9,921 nucleotides of DNA from Gemmatimonadota bacterium (GCA_002686955.1 NYZA01000048.1:1-9921); one strand, 5' to 3'; shown: positions 2,085-8,413, counted from the first letter of the stretch. The notes: generated from the letters alone by a model not told the origin. Made by a program: numbers and translations.

Positions 2085-2840
2085 GTGCGACTGACCCTGC
2101 TGATGACGGCCCTGGCGAGCGCCACGGCCGGCTTTTCTTCTCTTGCTCGGGCGGCCGATCCTGGGGCATCCGGGGGCGGAATCGTCTCGGTGACTTCGGT
2201 GCCCTCGGGAGCGCGGGTGGTGCTAGACGGCCGGGTTCGCGTGATGGGGATCACCCCCTTTACGGTGGACGACCTGCCCTACGGCCGCTACGGGCTCAAT
2301 TCCGGTGAGCCGGGTTATACGGCCCTTGGCGACGATCTCACTCTGAAGCCCAGCTCGAAGCTGAATGTGAATGTCGAGCTGCGGCCGAAGGGAAGGATGG
2401 GGGCGATGGCTCGCTCTCTGATCCTGCCGGGGTGGGGACAGACCTACAGCCACCGTGATGGCACCGCTTCGTTCTACCGGATCTCTCTGGGGATCGGGGC
2501 GCTGATCGCCGGTGTCGCGAGCCTCGACTACGCACTGAACCGCTCCGATTTCGACACCGCCAAGGAGAACTACACCGACGCGATTATCGAGGGCGAAGAT
2601 GGCGAGAGCGAGTGGCGGACGGCGCGGCTGGCCAGACGGCGTCTCGATCGATCGCAGAACATCTTGTTCTATGCTGGCGCCGGTATCGGGGCGCTGTGGG
2701 CGCTGAACGCCCTCGATGCCGCTTTCAACTTCCCGGCCTTCGATCCGATCCCCGTGGGGGAGCAGGTCAGCCTTCGACTCCAGCCGCGATTCGATCGAGG
2801 AGTCGGAGCGAAATTGGAGCTCACCCGTGCGATTCAGTAG
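2085..2840 (+). CDS. PEGA-domain protein with a two-helix membrane module
   Basis: The protein has 251 residues. Residues 1-23 form a Sec signal peptide (MRLTLLMTAL..., cut after ARA). Residues 33-100 are a PEGA-type beta domain: VSVTSVPSGARVVLDGR, then GITPFTVDDLPYGRYGL, ending VNVELRPKG. Next comes a module beginning RSLILPGWGQTYSHR (110-124) with hydrophobic segments at about 130-150 and 191-213. The 'LPG.GQ.Y' entry followed by hairpin membrane helices is widespread in FCB-group envelope proteins and resembles DUF5683-type proteins, where the function is unknown. PEGA domains are usually extracytoplasmic and thought to bind peptidoglycan or other envelope components. The next gene starts inside its last 14 bases, so the two are probably translated together. 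The start rests on the ribosome site and promoter. The domain call is confident; the role is not known. Confidence 0.82.
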   Translation: MRLTLLMTALASATAGFSSLARAADPGASGGGIVSVTSVPSGARVVLDGRVRVMGITPFTVDDLPYGRYGLNSGEPGYTALGDDLTLKPSSKLNVNVELRPKGRMGAMARSLILPGWGQTYSHRDGTASFYRISLGIGALIAGVASLDYALNRSDFDTAKENYTDAIIEGEDGESEWRTARLARRRLDRSQNILFYAGAGIGALWALNALDAAFNFPAFDPIPVGEQVSLRLQPRFDRGVGAKLELTRAIQ

Positions 2841-3795
2841 CTCTGTTCCGATCGCGATGGCGCTGGCCCTGGTCGGATGTGAAGTGCCCCCGCTCGATCC
2901 GGTCGAGCCTCCTCCTCCCGCCTTCGTGGCGCCGGGGGGGCTCGGGGCCCTTGTCGGCACCGATCGCGTGACTCTGACATGGAGTGTGGTCGAGGGCGCG
3001 GTCGACTATGCGGTGTATCGGGAGAGGACCGACGAAGAGGCGGTGCTGCTCGATACGACCATCGACACGGTTTTTGTCGATCTTGCGTTGCCGGCCGGTG
3101 TTCCACACGGCTATTCGGTGGCGGCGCGTGATGGCGATGAGGACGAGGGGGCGAGGGCGGAGTTGGCGCAGGCTGTCGCCGGTTTCTACGACATCGAGCT
3201 CGATGGCGGGCGGTCCGCGACGTCCGATCCGCAAGTGGGCGTGAGCCCGATCGCTCCGGCTTCGGTTTCGGTCGCGGCGATCGGCCTCGGCGGCTCTGAA
3301 GAGGCGGCACTCTCCGCCACTCCGACTCCATTCACCGGGGATGTGGCCTGGTTTTTCACGGGCGATGATGGTCTGAAGAGGGTATGGGGGGTTCTCTACA
3401 CCGAACAGGGCGTTCGGACCGGTGCCTTCAAGGCCGAGATCCTGCTCGATCGTTCGGCGGAGATCCAGGGGGTGGATTGGTGCGTCGTCGCGGGGGCCGA
3501 TTGCGCCGTGCAGGACACGGTTCATGTGGCGCGCGCCGACACCGTGCGCTTCAGAGTGCTCACGAGCGAGACCGACCTGCCGGGAACGGTGTCGATACAG
3601 ATCGGCGAGTTCGCGGGTGATCAGACCTCTCTCACCGATGTCGACGGCGATGGTCTCTACGAAGGGTTTCTCTACGCCGAGTGGACCGAGATCAGAACGA
3701 CCGGGACCGAGACGCCGGTGAGCGCCTTCCTGACCGACGCGGTGGGGAATGTGGCGACACCGGCGCGGGCTTCCGACGCGATCGTCATTCGTTGA
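2827..3795 (+). CDS. Lipoprotein with one fibronectin type III domain
   Basis: The GTG start at 2827 has GGAG seven bases upstream (2816-2819) and overlaps the previous stop by 14 bases. The 322-residue product begins MRFSSSVPIAMALALVGCEV, a lipoprotein signal with lipobox LVGC (Cys18), followed by a Pro-rich linker (20-37). Residues 45-118 look like an FnIII fold: VTLTWSVVEGAVDYAVYRE, then HGYSVAARD. The remaining 200 residues are a beta-rich region that I do not recognise. It includes a possible Ca-binding loop, DVDGDGLYEG, and a final 'LTDAVGNVATPA' strand like the FlgD/Ig-type ends of surface proteins. It is likely anchored in the outer membrane or periplasm. Its neighbours suggest an envelope role, but no substrate can be inferred. 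Longer in-frame starts upstream (for example 2716) would destroy the signal peptide. Confidence 0.78.
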   Translation: MRFSSSVPIAMALALVGCEVPPLDPVEPPPPAFVAPGGLGALVGTDRVTLTWSVVEGAVDYAVYRERTDEEAVLLDTTIDTVFVDLALPAGVPHGYSVAARDGDEDEGARAELAQAVAGFYDIELDGGRSATSDPQVGVSPIAPASVSVAAIGLGGSEEAALSATPTPFTGDVAWFFTGDDGLKRVWGVLYTEQGVRTGAFKAEILLDRSAEIQGVDWCVVAGADCAVQDTVHVARADTVRFRVLTSETDLPGTVSIQIGEFAGDQTSLTDVDGDGLYEGFLYAEWTEIRTTGTETPVSAFLTDAVGNVATPARASDAIVIR

Positions 3796-4787
3796 CTCCG
3801 CCGGCGGAGCGATCCGCGGTGCTCGTCACGGGTGGACGAGGGGTGCTGGCGCGGGAGATTCTGTCCGCCCTCTCGCGCTCGATGGAGCGGTCGATCCGGC
3901 TGATGGGGGGGGCGAGCGCTCCTTGGCTGGCTCGGGTCGGAGGGGAGCACGTGCGGGTCGTGGGGGGGGATGCGACCCGGACCGGCGACGTGGCCGCGGC
4001 GGCCGAAGGGGCGCGGGTCGTGGTGCAGATCGGCTACCTCTCCTTTCTGAGAGATCCGGAGAATCCCGCGCTCTATCTCGATGCGGTGGAGGCGGCGGTT
4101 CGGGGGGCCGCACGTGCGGGAGTGGCGAGGGTCATCTACATCTCTTCGCTTCTGGCGCTCGGACCGAACGAGGAGGGGGACCACGACACTCTGCACGACG
4201 CCATCCATTTCCACGGACCGATCGAGCGGATCGCGTGGGATGCGCTCGGTGTGGGCACCCGGCTGGCGCGCGAGTTGGGGATCGATCTGCTGACCCTCTT
4301 CCCCACCTTTGTGTTCGGGCGGGGACCGGCGGGGCCCGAAAACCCGATCGGCGCGTTGGCGGCGGTTCTGTCAAGTGGGCGCCTGAAGGTGCGCGTGGGG
4401 ACGGCGGGGCGGCGGATCACGGTCTGTCACGCCGGTGATGTGGCGGGGGCGGTGGTGCGCGCGGTCGATCGGCCGCCGCCGGGTGATCGCCTCACACTGG
4501 GCGGACATGTCGTTACGACCGACGAGCTGCTCGAGCGGATCGCCGGCGTTGGGGGGTGGAGTCCACCCCGGCTGCGGCTGGGCTGCTCGACGGCCGGCCT
4601 GCTGGCGCGGCTCCGGCGCCGAAATCCGCACCTTCGCCTCCTGAACCACGAGCTGATCGAGGCCCTGCGCCACGATTGGGTCTACAGTTCCGACGAAGCC
4701 CGGCGGGCACTCGACTACCGTCCGCGCCCTTTGGCGGAAGGGCTCGAGGAGTCTTTCGCGCACCGGAACGAGATCGATCGGAGCTGA
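3792..4787 (+). CDS. Extended SDR / NAD-dependent epimerase-like protein lacking the YxxxK catalytic pair
   Basis: The protein has 331 residues with the order of an extended short-chain dehydrogenase: Rossmann beta-1 and glycine loop VLVTGGRGVLAREIL (10-24), an acidic residue after GG (VVGGDATRTGD, 57-66), a VVVQIGYLSF segment, then VARVIYISSLLALGP (111-125), FPTFVFGRGP (170-179) and a C-terminal substrate region. In active family members the region before 'LRP..VYG.G' carries YxxxK, typically P-Y-E-R-x-K. Here it reads GPIERIAWDA (142-151), so Ile144 and Ala148 stand where Tyr and Lys belong. The Ser at the end of beta-5 (SS, 118-119) is kept. The protein may bind NAD(P) or a prenyl or aromatic ligand without redox catalysis, or use other residues. 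The TTG at 3792 overlaps the previous stop as TTGA; GTG 3819 with GGCGGAG upstream (3803-3809) is the main alternative and would start at MLVTGG. It sits one base upstream of the kinase gene. Confidence 0.8.
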   Translation: MTPPAERSAVLVTGGRGVLAREILSALSRSMERSIRLMGGASAPWLARVGGEHVRVVGGDATRTGDVAAAAEGARVVVQIGYLSFLRDPENPALYLDAVEAAVRGAARAGVARVIYISSLLALGPNEEGDHDTLHDAIHFHGPIERIAWDALGVGTRLARELGIDLLTLFPTFVFGRGPAGPENPIGALAAVLSSGRLKVRVGTAGRRITVCHAGDVAGAVVRAVDRPPPGDRLTLGGHVVTTDELLERIAGVGGWSPPRLRLGCSTAGLLARLRRRNPHLRLLNHELIEALRHDWVYSSDEARRALDYRPRPLAEGLEESFAHRNEIDRS

Positions 4788-4788
4788 G

Positions 4789-6180
4789 ATGCGGGCAGAG
4801 GCCCCCGGAGAGAACTGGCGTCAAGGGCTGCAGCTCGCGGCCGTCGTCGGTGCGCTGAGCCTGCGCTGGGTCGAAGCGCCGCAAGTGATTCTCGCTTGCA
4901 CCATCGCGCTTCTTTTGGTGCTCATCGTAGTCCCTCGGGTGGGGGAGTCGCTTTACCGTCCGGACGAACCGCGGTCGTCGGCACCGATCGGGCTGGTTCT
5001 CTATCCGGCAACGCTCCTGCTGCTCGTTGTGCTTTTCTGGTCGTTCGGCGGGATGCCCCATGTGACGGCGGCGATATGGGGACTGTTTGCGTGTGGCGAC
5101 GCGGCGGCGACGCTGATGGGGCGCGGCGAGGCGGCGGGGCTGCCGTGGAACCCGAAGAAATCGTGGCACGGCAGCTTCGCCTACTGGGTCTGCGGCTCGG
5201 TGAGCGCCCTCTTTCTGCTCGGATGGGTCGGCAGGCGAACGGATGTGCTGATCGCCGGGGGACCCTGGGTTGCCTGGTCGCTCTGCATCGTTGTCGGGGG
5301 GCTCTGCGCCTTCTTGGAGTCGCTTCCCGTCCGTCACCTGAACGACAACTTCTGGGTGCCCCTCGTGGGTGGCGTCGCGCTCTATACCGGTTTGTTGCTC
5401 CGCGCATCGTTCATGAGCGCCAATCTACCCGAGCCGCTCCCCTTCGCGATCGAGGCCGCGATTCATGTTCTGATCGTCTCCTGGGCGTGGACCCGCGGGC
5501 TCTGGGGAGTGGCGGGTTGGTTCGCCGCTCTCGCCGTCGGGGCGGTGGCACTTCTTCTCTTGGGTGCCGGGGGGTATCTGGCGCTCGTCGTGCTCGCGGT
5601 GATCGCCTGGCGCGCGACCGAGTACAATCACCGCCGTCGACTGGCTCTCGAGCTGGCCGGCGAGGAGCATCCCCCGCGCTGGAGCGGGCGCTTGGTCGTC
5701 GCCTCGACATCGGGCTTTCTTATTCTGGGCTTCCTGGCCTTTTCGACCGGGGTGGCCGGGGCAGAACCGGCAACCACCTCGCTGCACACCCTTTTCGCGA
5801 CCGCCGCCGTGGGGGCTCTGGCCGGAGTGGCGGCGGCGGTTCTGGCACGCGAGCTGGGGCCGATCTTCGGGCGGGCTCCGGTGCTCGCCACCACTCTCAA
5901 ACGGGTGGCGGCGGGAACCGGGGGGGCGATCTCGCTCGAGGGGACGTTGATCGGGGCGGCGGGGGCGCTGGTTGTTGGGTTGGCGGGGGCGATCGGGGGG
6001 TTGGCGCCGATCTGGGTCGCCCTGCCGGTGTGCATCGCCGGCACGCTCGGCAGCCACGTTGAGAGCTTCGTTGTGGCTTCGATCAGCACCCAGCGGCGCC
6101 CGGGCGAGCTTGCGCTGCTCTCCCTCAACACGACCGTGGCGGGGTTGGCGGTCATCCTGCTCTTCATGTTGGTCTTCTGA
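4789..6180 (+). CDS. Membrane fusion: polyprenol/phytol kinase-like (VTE5-type) plus DUF92 (VTE6-type) domains
   Basis: The protein has 463 residues with about a dozen hydrophobic segments. Residues 20-205 match the CTP-dependent polyprenol/dolichol/phytol kinase family: CGDAAATLMGR (102-112), then WNPKKSWHGSFAYWVCG (120-136), then ESLPVRHLNDNFWVPLVGG (177-195). These are the family's GD..A...G, KSxxGS and DN..VP motifs. Residues about 220-463 match DUF92, the family of plant VTE6 and cyanobacterial phytyl-phosphate kinases: ARELGPIFGRAPVLATTL (353-370), then RVAAGTGGAISLEGTL (372-387), and a C-terminal AGTLGSHVESF. In plants VTE5 makes phytyl phosphate from phytol and VTE6 makes phytyl diphosphate; both acting in one chain would yield a prenyl diphosphate in the membrane. 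The Asp usually seen in the DUF92 'ADT.A.E.G' motif is not apparent (AAAVLARELG). GGAG lies five bases before the ATG; the stop overlaps the UbiA start as TGATG. The substrate is not shown by the sequence. Confidence 0.82.
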   Translation: MRAEAPGENWRQGLQLAAVVGALSLRWVEAPQVILACTIALLLVLIVVPRVGESLYRPDEPRSSAPIGLVLYPATLLLLVVLFWSFGGMPHVTAAIWGLFACGDAAATLMGRGEAAGLPWNPKKSWHGSFAYWVCGSVSALFLLGWVGRRTDVLIAGGPWVAWSLCIVVGGLCAFLESLPVRHLNDNFWVPLVGGVALYTGLLLRASFMSANLPEPLPFAIEAAIHVLIVSWAWTRGLWGVAGWFAALAVGAVALLLLGAGGYLALVVLAVIAWRATEYNHRRRLALELAGEEHPPRWSGRLVVASTSGFLILGFLAFSTGVAGAEPATTSLHTLFATAAVGALAGVAAAVLARELGPIFGRAPVLATTLKRVAAGTGGAISLEGTLIGAAGALVVGLAGAIGGLAPIWVALPVCIAGTLGSHVESFVVASISTQRRPGELALLSLNTTVAGLAVILLFMLVF

Positions 6181-7157
6181 TGTCGGATGCCGCCGGGAGA
6201 TCCAGCAACCCCTATTGGGACCTCGTGCGCCCCTATACCTTGCTGCCGCCTCTGTTCGGCATGCTCTCGGGGGCGGTCTGCGCCATCGGCGCCGTGGCTA
6301 CGCGCACCGGCGCTTCGATCGGTGGCGCGGACGGCGTCGATCGGCGCGTCATCGCCATCGGTCTCGGTGCGGTCATGGCCGCGACACTCAATGCGGGCTC
6401 GAACGCGATCAACCAGCTCACCGACCAAGAGAACGATCGGAGGAACAAGCCCGCCCGGCCGCTGCCCTCCGGTCGGCTGACCCCGGGCGCCGTGCTGATC
6501 ACGGGCGTCTTCTTCTATGTCGCCGCCCTGCTCGCCGCTTGGGCGGTCGGAGTCCCCGTGGGCGGGACGATTCACGAGTGCTTTTGGATCGCCTTGGCCG
6601 GCGCCGCGGGGAGCCTGATCTACTCCGTCCCTCCCGTGCGGACGAAGAGGTGGGCCTGGGCGGCGCAGCTCACGATCGCGGTGCCGAGAGGGATGTTGCT
6701 CCGAGTGTGCGGCTGGTCGTGCGTCGCGCTCACTTTCAACGATCCAGAGCCCTGGTACGCGGGCGCGGTTTTCTTCCTCTTCCTGCTCGGGGCGGCCGCC
6801 ACCAAAGACTTCGCCGACATCGAAGGGGATCGGGCCGCGGGCTGCAACACCTGGCCTGTGGTTCACGGCCCGGCCGGCGCTGCTCGCAGGGTCGCGCCCT
6901 TCCTGCTCTTTCCCTGGCTCCTTCTTCCACTGGGTGTGGTGCTTCCCCACCCATCCGGTGGACCTTTGCTCGCCGGCAATCCGCTCGCATTGACGATCTT
7001 GGGCATCGCTCTTTCGGTCTACGGCGCCTACATCGCCCGGCTCATGCTCGTGCGCCCCGATGAGCTCGCTCGATCGGAGAACCACCCCTCGTGGGTCCAT
7101 ATGTACGCTTTGATGATGGTGGCCCAGATCGGATTGATGGTGGCGTATCTGATCTGA
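6180..7157 (+). CDS. UbiA-superfamily prenyltransferase
   Basis: This 325-residue integral membrane protein has both aspartate-rich motifs of the superfamily: NQLTDQEND (Asn78, Asp82, Asp86; NxxxDxxxD) and DFADIEGD (Asp210, Asp213, Asp217). These bind Mg2+ and the prenyl diphosphate. RRNKPARPLPSG after the first motif and the Gly-Cys-Asn-Thr-Trp-Pro-Val segment after the second are typical. Eight or nine hydrophobic segments are visible. The enzyme transfers a prenyl group to an acceptor in the membrane; the superfamily includes enzymes for quinones, haem O, chlorophyll and the archaeal lipid precursor DGGGP. The 'KD..DIEGDR..G..T.PV..G' second motif resembles the chlorophyll synthase and DGGGP synthase branches more than MenA, but I cannot place it without a tree. 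It begins one base inside the end of the kinase-fusion gene, so its prenyl diphosphate probably comes from that protein. Confidence 0.88.
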   Translation: MSDAAGRSSNPYWDLVRPYTLLPPLFGMLSGAVCAIGAVATRTGASIGGADGVDRRVIAIGLGAVMAATLNAGSNAINQLTDQENDRRNKPARPLPSGRLTPGAVLITGVFFYVAALLAAWAVGVPVGGTIHECFWIALAGAAGSLIYSVPPVRTKRWAWAAQLTIAVPRGMLLRVCGWSCVALTFNDPEPWYAGAVFFLFLLGAAATKDFADIEGDRAAGCNTWPVVHGPAGAARRVAPFLLFPWLLLPLGVVLPHPSGGPLLAGNPLALTILGIALSVYGAYIARLMLVRPDELARSENHPSWVHMYALMMVAQIGLMVAYLI

Positions 7158-7166
7158 GCGAAGAAG

Positions 7167-7173
7167 AGAGGAG
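7167..7173 (+). promoter_or_regulatory. Ribosome binding site of the ketoacyl synthase
   Basis: AGAGGAG ends six bases before ATG 7180. It is the strongest ribosome site in the operon and lies in the 22-base gap after the UbiA stop. Confidence 0.7.
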
Positions 7174-7179
7174 ATCACC

Positions 7180-8413
7180 ATGGCGAAACGAGTGGCAATC
7201 ACCGGTCTCGGGCCGGTCACACCGATCGGCGTCGGCCGGGACGATCTGGCCCGGGCGCTCATCGAAGGGAAATGTGGTGTAGGCCCACTCGACGATACGA
7301 TCGAGCACCACCTCGTGCTCACCCATTTTGGAGCTCAGATAGGGGATTGGGACCCGGGACGGTGGCTCGACACCCGCCAGCAGCGACGCCTGGCGCGCAA
7401 TGCCCAGTTCGCCGTCGTCGCCGCCGGCTCTGCGCTCGAAGACGCCGGAATCGACCTGCATTCCGATCTGGAGCTGGCCCGTCGCTGCGGGACGATTCTG
7501 GGGACCTGCGCCGAGCTCGAGTGGGTCTATCGAGAGGTGCTGAAGCTTTACAACGACCCCAAAGGCTACAAAAGTGTCGCTCCCTTGACCGTCACATGCT
7601 CCTTCCCCGACGCGCCGGCCGGTCAGGCCGCAATCGTGACCGGAGCGCGAGGGGCGAATCTGGCGGTTTCAACGGCCTGTTCGTCGAGCAACAATGCGAT
7701 GGGCTACGCCTTGAGCATGATCCGGCTCGGCATGCTCGATCTCTGTCTGACCGGCGGCAGCGAGGCGCCGCTCCAGGCTTCGACTCTTGCGGCGCGCGCT
7801 ATCCACCAGAAACGATGAACCGTACACCGCATGCCGTCCCTTCGATGCCACCAGAGACGGGTTCGTGATGGGCGAGGGGGCGGGGATCGTTCTCTTCGAA
7901 GAGCTCGAGCACGCCCGCCGCCGGGGGGCGCGGATCTATGCCGAGGTCTGTGGATTCGGTCAATCGTGCGATGCGCAACACATGACGAAGCTCGATCCCG
8001 AGGGTGTCGAGCCAGCCCGCGCGGTTCAGATGGCTCTCGACGACGCGGGACTGAACCCCGAGGATGTCGACTACATCAATGCGCATGGGACATCGACGCC
8101 GATCAACGACGCCAGCGAGACGCGGATCATCAAGCGGGTATTCGGAGATCGCGCCTACGATATTCCTGTTTCTTCCTCGAAATCGCAGCTCGGTCATCTG
8201 ATCGGCGCATCTGGTGGCGCGGAGCTGATCTCGACCCTCTTGGCGATGGAACAAGGGTTCATCCCACAGACGATAAACCTGCGCCATGCCGATCCTGAAT
8301 GCGATCTCGACTACGTGTCGGATGGGGCGAGAGAGGGGCGGATCGATGTTGCGGTGTTGAACTCCTTCGGCTTCGGCGGCAAGAACGCGATCCTGGCGAT
8401 TCGGAGAGTCTGA
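7180..8413 (+). pseudogene. FabF-like beta-ketoacyl-ACP synthase, split by one frameshift
   Basis: The first part (7180-7818) starts MAKRVAITGLGPVTPIGVG and carries the nucleophile in VSTACSSSNNAMGYA (Cys167, codon 7678-7680). It is followed by the [11 protein letters not shown] block and then runs into AIHQKR and a stop. The next frame (from about 7793) continues exactly where the family should: [43 protein letters not shown] (His codon 8084-8086) and [15 protein letters not shown] (Lys 8180-8182, His 8195-8197), ending [12 protein letters not shown]. So all residues of the Cys-His-His condensing triad are present, but in two frames. The joint fits one extra base between about 7786 and 7798 (GCGGCGCGCGC). 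The enzyme would condense an acyl-enzyme with malonyl-ACP. Beside UbiA it could serve a specialised acyl or polyketide product rather than housekeeping fatty acid synthesis. It may be intact in the organism if the frameshift is an error. Confidence 0.9.

Follow-up and report, generated by a model that had tools for sequence, protein, structure and literature searches.

A gene set in which a UbiA-superfamily prenyltransferase is combined with homologues of the prenol kinases VTE5 and VTE6, often together with an SDR, is shared by several bacterial phyla and has apparently not been described so far. This conserved module is the main finding of our analysis, and its function is predicted from homology and gene neighbourhood. 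We consider it somewhat probable (roughly 55%) that the window, i.e. the whole 9921-base contig C48 of a 4.28 Mb MAG that is 84.5% complete, carries a diverged copy of what would be a prenol-recycling and prenyl-transfer module.

Gene order in the window and at related loci

All genes of the cluster are located on the + strand. The first is an extended SDR of the Epimerase/3Beta_HSD type (3792..4787), whose TTG start codon at 3792 overlaps the stop of the upstream gene. After a gap of 1 nt it is followed by a fused kinase gene (4789..6180) with a VTE5/SEC59-like N half (residues ~1-216) and a VTE6-like DUF92 C half (~217-463). The UbiA gene (6180..7157) overlaps the kinase gene by 1 nt, and a FabF-like ketoacyl synthase (KS), split into an N-terminal (7180..7818) and a C-terminal half (7787..8413), begins after another 22 nt. 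An earlier, sequence-only reading had described the kinase, UbiA and FabF-like genes as packed with junctions of 1-22 bases behind an SDR-like gene, and these spacings agree with the coordinates. Pfam matches in the window were Epimerase (31 bits), DUF92 (87.9 bits), UbiA (109 bits), and the N and C domains of ketoacyl-synt. The GC content by codon position is coding-like across the cluster ORFs, all of which are open except KS. The gene directly upstream (2716..3795, + strand) is secreted or lipoprotein-like, with no assigned function, and is a lineage-level neighbour, whose counterpart in G001, the only relative from the same phylum among the genomes compared, sits immediately 5' of the kinase gene. 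Further 5' of the cluster, positions 1992-2840 encode a PEGA and DUF5683 protein, and positions 551-874 the N-terminal part of an FGE-sulfatase (SUMF1-like) domain, which ends about halfway along the model. The ORFs that come next as coding candidates are on the opposite strand (846-1317), and this part of a domain is possibly a truncated gene or an assembly junction.

To collect related loci, GTDB species genomes were scanned with an alignment of four UbiA members, which yielded 155 relatives. The 80 loci retained cover Acidobacteriota, Planctomycetota, Gemmatimonadota, Glassbacteria, Krumholzibacteriota, Eisenbacteria, Wallbacteria, Coatesbacteria, and others. A UbiA of this kind is also carried by the cultivable Sulfidibacter corallicola (L097). 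At 58 of the 83 UbiA loci, a set chosen for its similar UbiA proteins and correlated by phylogeny, profile searches on ORFs found VTE5/VTE6 homologues, and at 52 these were located immediately 5' of UbiA. When only loci with at least 1.6 kb of upstream sequence were counted (n=69), 40 contained a fused kinase, 10 two separate genes, and 1 the DUF92 half alone; L080 is an example with the fusion and L063 one with separate genes. A kinase was missing at 25 of the 83 loci, some of which are short contigs, so UbiA is not strictly kinase-dependent. A high-scoring SDR was present near UbiA at 23 of the 52 well-covered loci, all 23 of which also contain the kinases, and its position varies, being 5' of the kinase, 3' of UbiA, or apart. 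The occurrence of both fused and separate kinases and the shifting position of the SDR argue for functional linkage over a simple inherited gene order. UbiA and the VTE5/VTE6 pair, often with an SDR, recur together across several phyla. Of the pathway proposed in the sequence-only reading, the coupling of prenol activation to UbiA transfer is supported by this conservation, and an acceptor built by KS is not supported (see below). A search of the open-access literature turned up no description of such a module in bacteria other than phototrophs. Some loci are rearranged: in L067 the kinase and SDR lie 3' of UbiA on the opposite strand, and in L083 and L116 (Krumholzibacteriota) the SDR and DUF92 lie 3' of UbiA on the same strand.

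Four of the kinase-less loci (L041, L078, L095, L118) have a polyprenyl synthase at most 250 bp from UbiA, and the presence of a short-chain prenyl diphosphate synthase in place of the kinases supports a supply of prenyl diphosphate. The most extended arrangement is an eight-gene row in Gemmatimonadales (L063, 7492-17553) with the order SDR, VTE5, VTE6, UbiA, PDE, polyprenyl synthase, PDE, and radical SAM. The PDEs are phosphodiesterase-family proteins, the second being a membrane protein, the polyprenyl synthase has FPP synthase as its best model (257 bits, cut-off 275), and the radical SAM protein belongs to the variant_rSAM family. Parts of this row were also seen in Glassbacteria (L047) and Planctomycetota (L043, L046). 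The clade UbiA adjoins a radical SAM gene (NF045502, variant_rSAM family) in L041 (9725-13080), L078 (3360-6473), L052, and L119, and G035 encodes a variant_rSAM protein with 60% identity to the L063 protein on a separate contig; the L063 radical SAM protein was not found in the window's genome or in G001, both of which are incomplete. In Acidobacteriota the module is preceded by LptD, an rfbA-type nucleotidyltransferase, RmlD, and GDP-mannose-dehydratase-like genes, and this LptD/RmlD envelope context is not present at the loci of other phyla. The synthase neighbours and the Acidobacteriota context together suggest that UbiA would depend on short-chain prenyl diphosphates and would make a product that concerns the envelope.

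The UbiA transferase and the fused kinase

The window UbiA matches PF01040, contains two Asp-rich motifs, and retains all family-invariant catalytic residues (N75, N78, D82, D86, D210, D213, D217). Among 18 NCBIfam models that matched, the best was ChlG with 87.5 bits, compared to a cut-off of 313, and the cut-offs of ChlG, DGGGPS, heme O synthase and HPT were not reached. An assignment to a named NCBIfam subfamily was rejected, as the scores are far below all cut-offs. In a phylogenetic tree, all 83 UbiA members formed one group with a support of 96/93; the outgroups, many of them on long branches, were the heme O synthase, the DGGGPS-like protein, the DPPR synthase and other UbiAs of the genome together with four PDB sequences, and MenA was left out. 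In this tree, the group is separate from chlorophyll synthase, DGGGP synthase, heme O synthase, and DPPR synthase. Among solved structures, chlorophyll synthase (ChlG, PDB 9sau) is the closest, followed by the DGGGP synthase of M. jannaschii (PDB 6m31); both share with the clade the Asp-rich motifs and a KPxRPLPSG-type motif, whereas the module UbiA forms its own clade and has the C-terminal signature ENHPSWxHMY.

DUF92 was matched by all 39 full-length kinase members, and the window score of 87.9 bits is well above the gathering threshold of 27.5. CTP_transf_1 (PF01148) was matched by 3 of 39 relatives, with a best E of 6.7e-5, and the window copy was below detection. The VTE5 half of the window retains all its invariant residues (G103, D104, N121, K124, E177, D186, N187). 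An hhalign comparison shows homology between the N and C halves of the kinase (E 8e-5) and places D104 opposite D350. The latter, which is present in 38 of 38 relatives, including G001, is replaced by Ala in the window, where Asp350-Thr351 reads Ala-Val (5836..5841, + strand), and the otherwise invariant Arg298 is Trp. The VTE5/VTE6 fusion suggested by the sequence-only reading is supported by the kinase gene and its DUF92 match, but the VTE6 half lacks the invariant Asp of its relatives and the VTE5 half escapes Pfam; we treat the former as a sequence homologue and do not claim it as an active kinase. An AlphaFold2 model of the fused protein had a pLDDT of 90.4. A search of PDB sequences with the kinase profile returned nothing meaningful, and Foldseek alone gave no significant match with the model, which is why a second structural alignment was used. 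Among Foldseek's top 1000 chains, the N half (residues 13-204) aligned best with CdsA 4q2g (Z 8.6, rmsd 5.6, 175 aligned), and the C half (residues 316-461) with an archaeal CDP-archaeol synthase (Z 6.2), Z values that are modest for helical membrane proteins. Both of these top matches are from the expected family. The window's genome contains more VTE5/SEC59-like N-half homologues on C161, C200, and C96 (L152, L154, L155); in one of them the matching region contains a TGA.

SEC59-DUF92 fusions, with both halves from the cytidylyltransferase family and containing a catalytic Asp, are known in archaea (PMC5898192), which means that the fusion as such has been seen before. The domain order is identical to that of, for example, Mbar_A3310, but for the archaeal proteins uppS is the sole conserved neighbour reported, whereas here the neighbours are UbiA and an SDR. 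VTE5 and VTE6 of plants and cyanobacteria are CTP-preferring prenol and prenyl-phosphate kinases (PMC9782597), and their salvage route likewise combines a polyprenol kinase homologue (VTE5/FOLK) with a DUF92/COG1836 prenyl-phosphate kinase homologue (PMC9782597, PMC13415981), feeding UbiA-type transferases in plants. In contrast to this system, the module has a fused kinase gene or two neighbouring ones that share an operon with a dedicated UbiA and an SDR, is defined at the gene level, mostly in phyla not known as phototrophic, and, in the window, has a VTE6 half without the conserved Asp.

A degenerate SDR and a broken ketoacyl synthase

The SDR of the module may be related to the farnesol dehydrogenase FLDH. 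By analogy with the role of FLDH beside FOLK, it may act on prenal and prenol. The likeness to Arabidopsis, where FLDH acts with FOLK, is an oxidoreductase and a prenol kinase in one salvage route (PMC13415981). The best NCBIfam match of the SDR is HpnA, a hopanoid-associated sugar epimerase. The window copy is degenerate: compared to 21 relatives, in which all four positions are invariant, Tyr144 is replaced by Ile, Lys148 by Ala, Asn95 by Tyr, and Gly20 by Ala. The YxxxK motif thus reads IxxxA and the Rossmann GxxGxxG motif GGRGVLA, so the window copy lacks the combination that defines an extended SDR, whereas Tyr and Lys are kept in 21 of 21 relatives. The SDR partner put forward in the sequence-only reading is a true family partner at other loci, but its copy in the window is without the catalytic Tyr and Lys. 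The locus in G001 has no SDR.

The sequence-only reading had also counted a FabF-like synthase as one gene of the operon, and had suggested that this condensing enzyme builds the acceptor which UbiA then prenylates. In favour of such a four-gene pathway, KS lies on the same strand at 22 nt from UbiA, and the active-site Cys and two His can be read by eye across the two halves. However, there is no single ORF spanning the FabF model: residues 1-199 of the model are encoded by 7180-7818 and residues 204-407 by 7787-8413, in different frames, the frame being lost near 7793. Compared with intact FabFs from its own genome and from relatives, 4 residues and the frame offset are missing at the junction, or ~14 nt, which exceeds a typical single-base error, although an assembly artefact may be the cause. 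Both halves match TIGR03150, the likeness to FabF ketoacyl-ACP synthase II, from which the window KS differs by its frameshift. No KS match was found at any of the 82 other UbiA loci in a profile search of the ORFs in the stretch examined per locus. Moreover, the genome has a full FabF on C197 (36% and 57% identity to the KS halves) and a second KS on C84, so that the window KS is not its only FabF. Because KS is split, ~14 bases short, absent from the 82 other loci, and accompanied by an intact FabF elsewhere, we dropped it from the pathway, and consider the four-gene scheme hardly credible.

Proposed pathway and alternative products

In the complete module, the SDR would possibly interconvert prenal and prenol, the VTE5-like kinase would convert a free short-chain prenyl alcohol, perhaps C15-C20, into the prenyl monophosphate, and the VTE6-like kinase would convert this into the diphosphate. 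Both kinases are expected to be of the CTP type, following the plant and cyanobacterial VTE5/VTE6 precedent (PMC9782597), and the dedicated membrane UbiA would move the prenyl group from the diphosphate onto an acceptor. In the window's genome, judging from their residues, UbiA and the first kinase look competent and the second kinase and the SDR catalytically dead. KS is frameshifted as well, so UbiA probably depends on de novo diphosphate synthesis by polyprenyl synthases, for which the genome gave two matches, and the window's fused kinase would be expected to stop at the monophosphate. The loss of Tyr and Lys in the SDR and of Asp in the second kinase indicates that this copy has probably been reduced or is in decay, and these losses would weaken the full pathway in this organism. 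A more extreme view is that the whole cluster is a non-functional remnant. This would account for the KS frameshift, the four lost SDR residues, the loss of Asp350 and Arg298, and the missing SDR in G001, but it does not fit the intact invariant residues of UbiA and the VTE5 half, the open, coding-like ORFs outside KS, and the 73% identity between the UbiA proteins of the window and G001, and we regard it as rather unlikely.

The alternatives differ in the product. VTE5-like enzymes share homology with dolichol kinase (PMC5898192), which means that a long polyprenol could serve as substrate, and the kinases might re-phosphorylate polyprenols of the undecaprenol or dolichol type for envelope glycans. 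In that case UbiA would form a lipid-linked or prenylated sugar, comparable to decaprenyl-phosphoribose synthesis, and the SDR would be a sugar epimerase, as its HpnA match and the Acidobacteriota neighbours would suggest. Yet the window UbiA gave no match to the models for DPPR synthase, the genome's DPPR synthase is another gene, L063 has a synthase of the short-chain FPP/GGPP type beside its UbiA, and the envelope context is confined to Acidobacteriota, so this scheme, too, is unlikely. An archaeal-type ether lipid branch, in which UbiA would prenylate a glycerol-phosphate acceptor with geranylgeranyl or phytyl and the kinases would provide the GGPP, is less likely still. The genome does encode a GGGP synthase (C128:8646-9293, L134; 256.6 bits, which exceeds the cut-off of 247 for PRK04169.1-2) and a DGGGPS-like UbiA (C195:11017-11700, L002; 196-208 bits, below the cut-offs), and the second closest solved enzyme to the clade is a DGGGPS, but the DGGGPS-like genes of this genome and of G001 are separate and fall outside the clade, and G001, G035, and G036 have a clade UbiA with no GGGPS found in the search. 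The C128 and C195 genes are, in their own right, candidates for making ether lipids of the archaeal type in a bacterium. Attachment of a quinone side chain, in a MenA or UbiA/MqnP role, would be in line with membership of the UbiA superfamily, but no MenA model is among the 18 NCBIfam matches, all far below cut-off, and no quinone genes were among the families identified in the neighbourhoods; we consider this role very improbable.

Our preferred reading remains that the window holds a diverged version of a module for prenol recycling and prenyl transfer. As a tentative extension, less probable than this reading itself, the full module in Acidobacteriota, Planctomycetota, Gemmatimonadota, and others may make an undescribed prenylated envelope lipid with built-in prenol recycling, to which some lineages would add a diphosphate synthase, two phosphodiesterase-family proteins, and a radical SAM protein. 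The comparison corrects the first reading, in that the ketoacyl synthase is a local and broken neighbour, and it ties both kinases to one dedicated prenyltransferase. The module points to a prenylated product that has yet to be assigned, and as an operon conserved in soil and groundwater phyla it provides testable genes.
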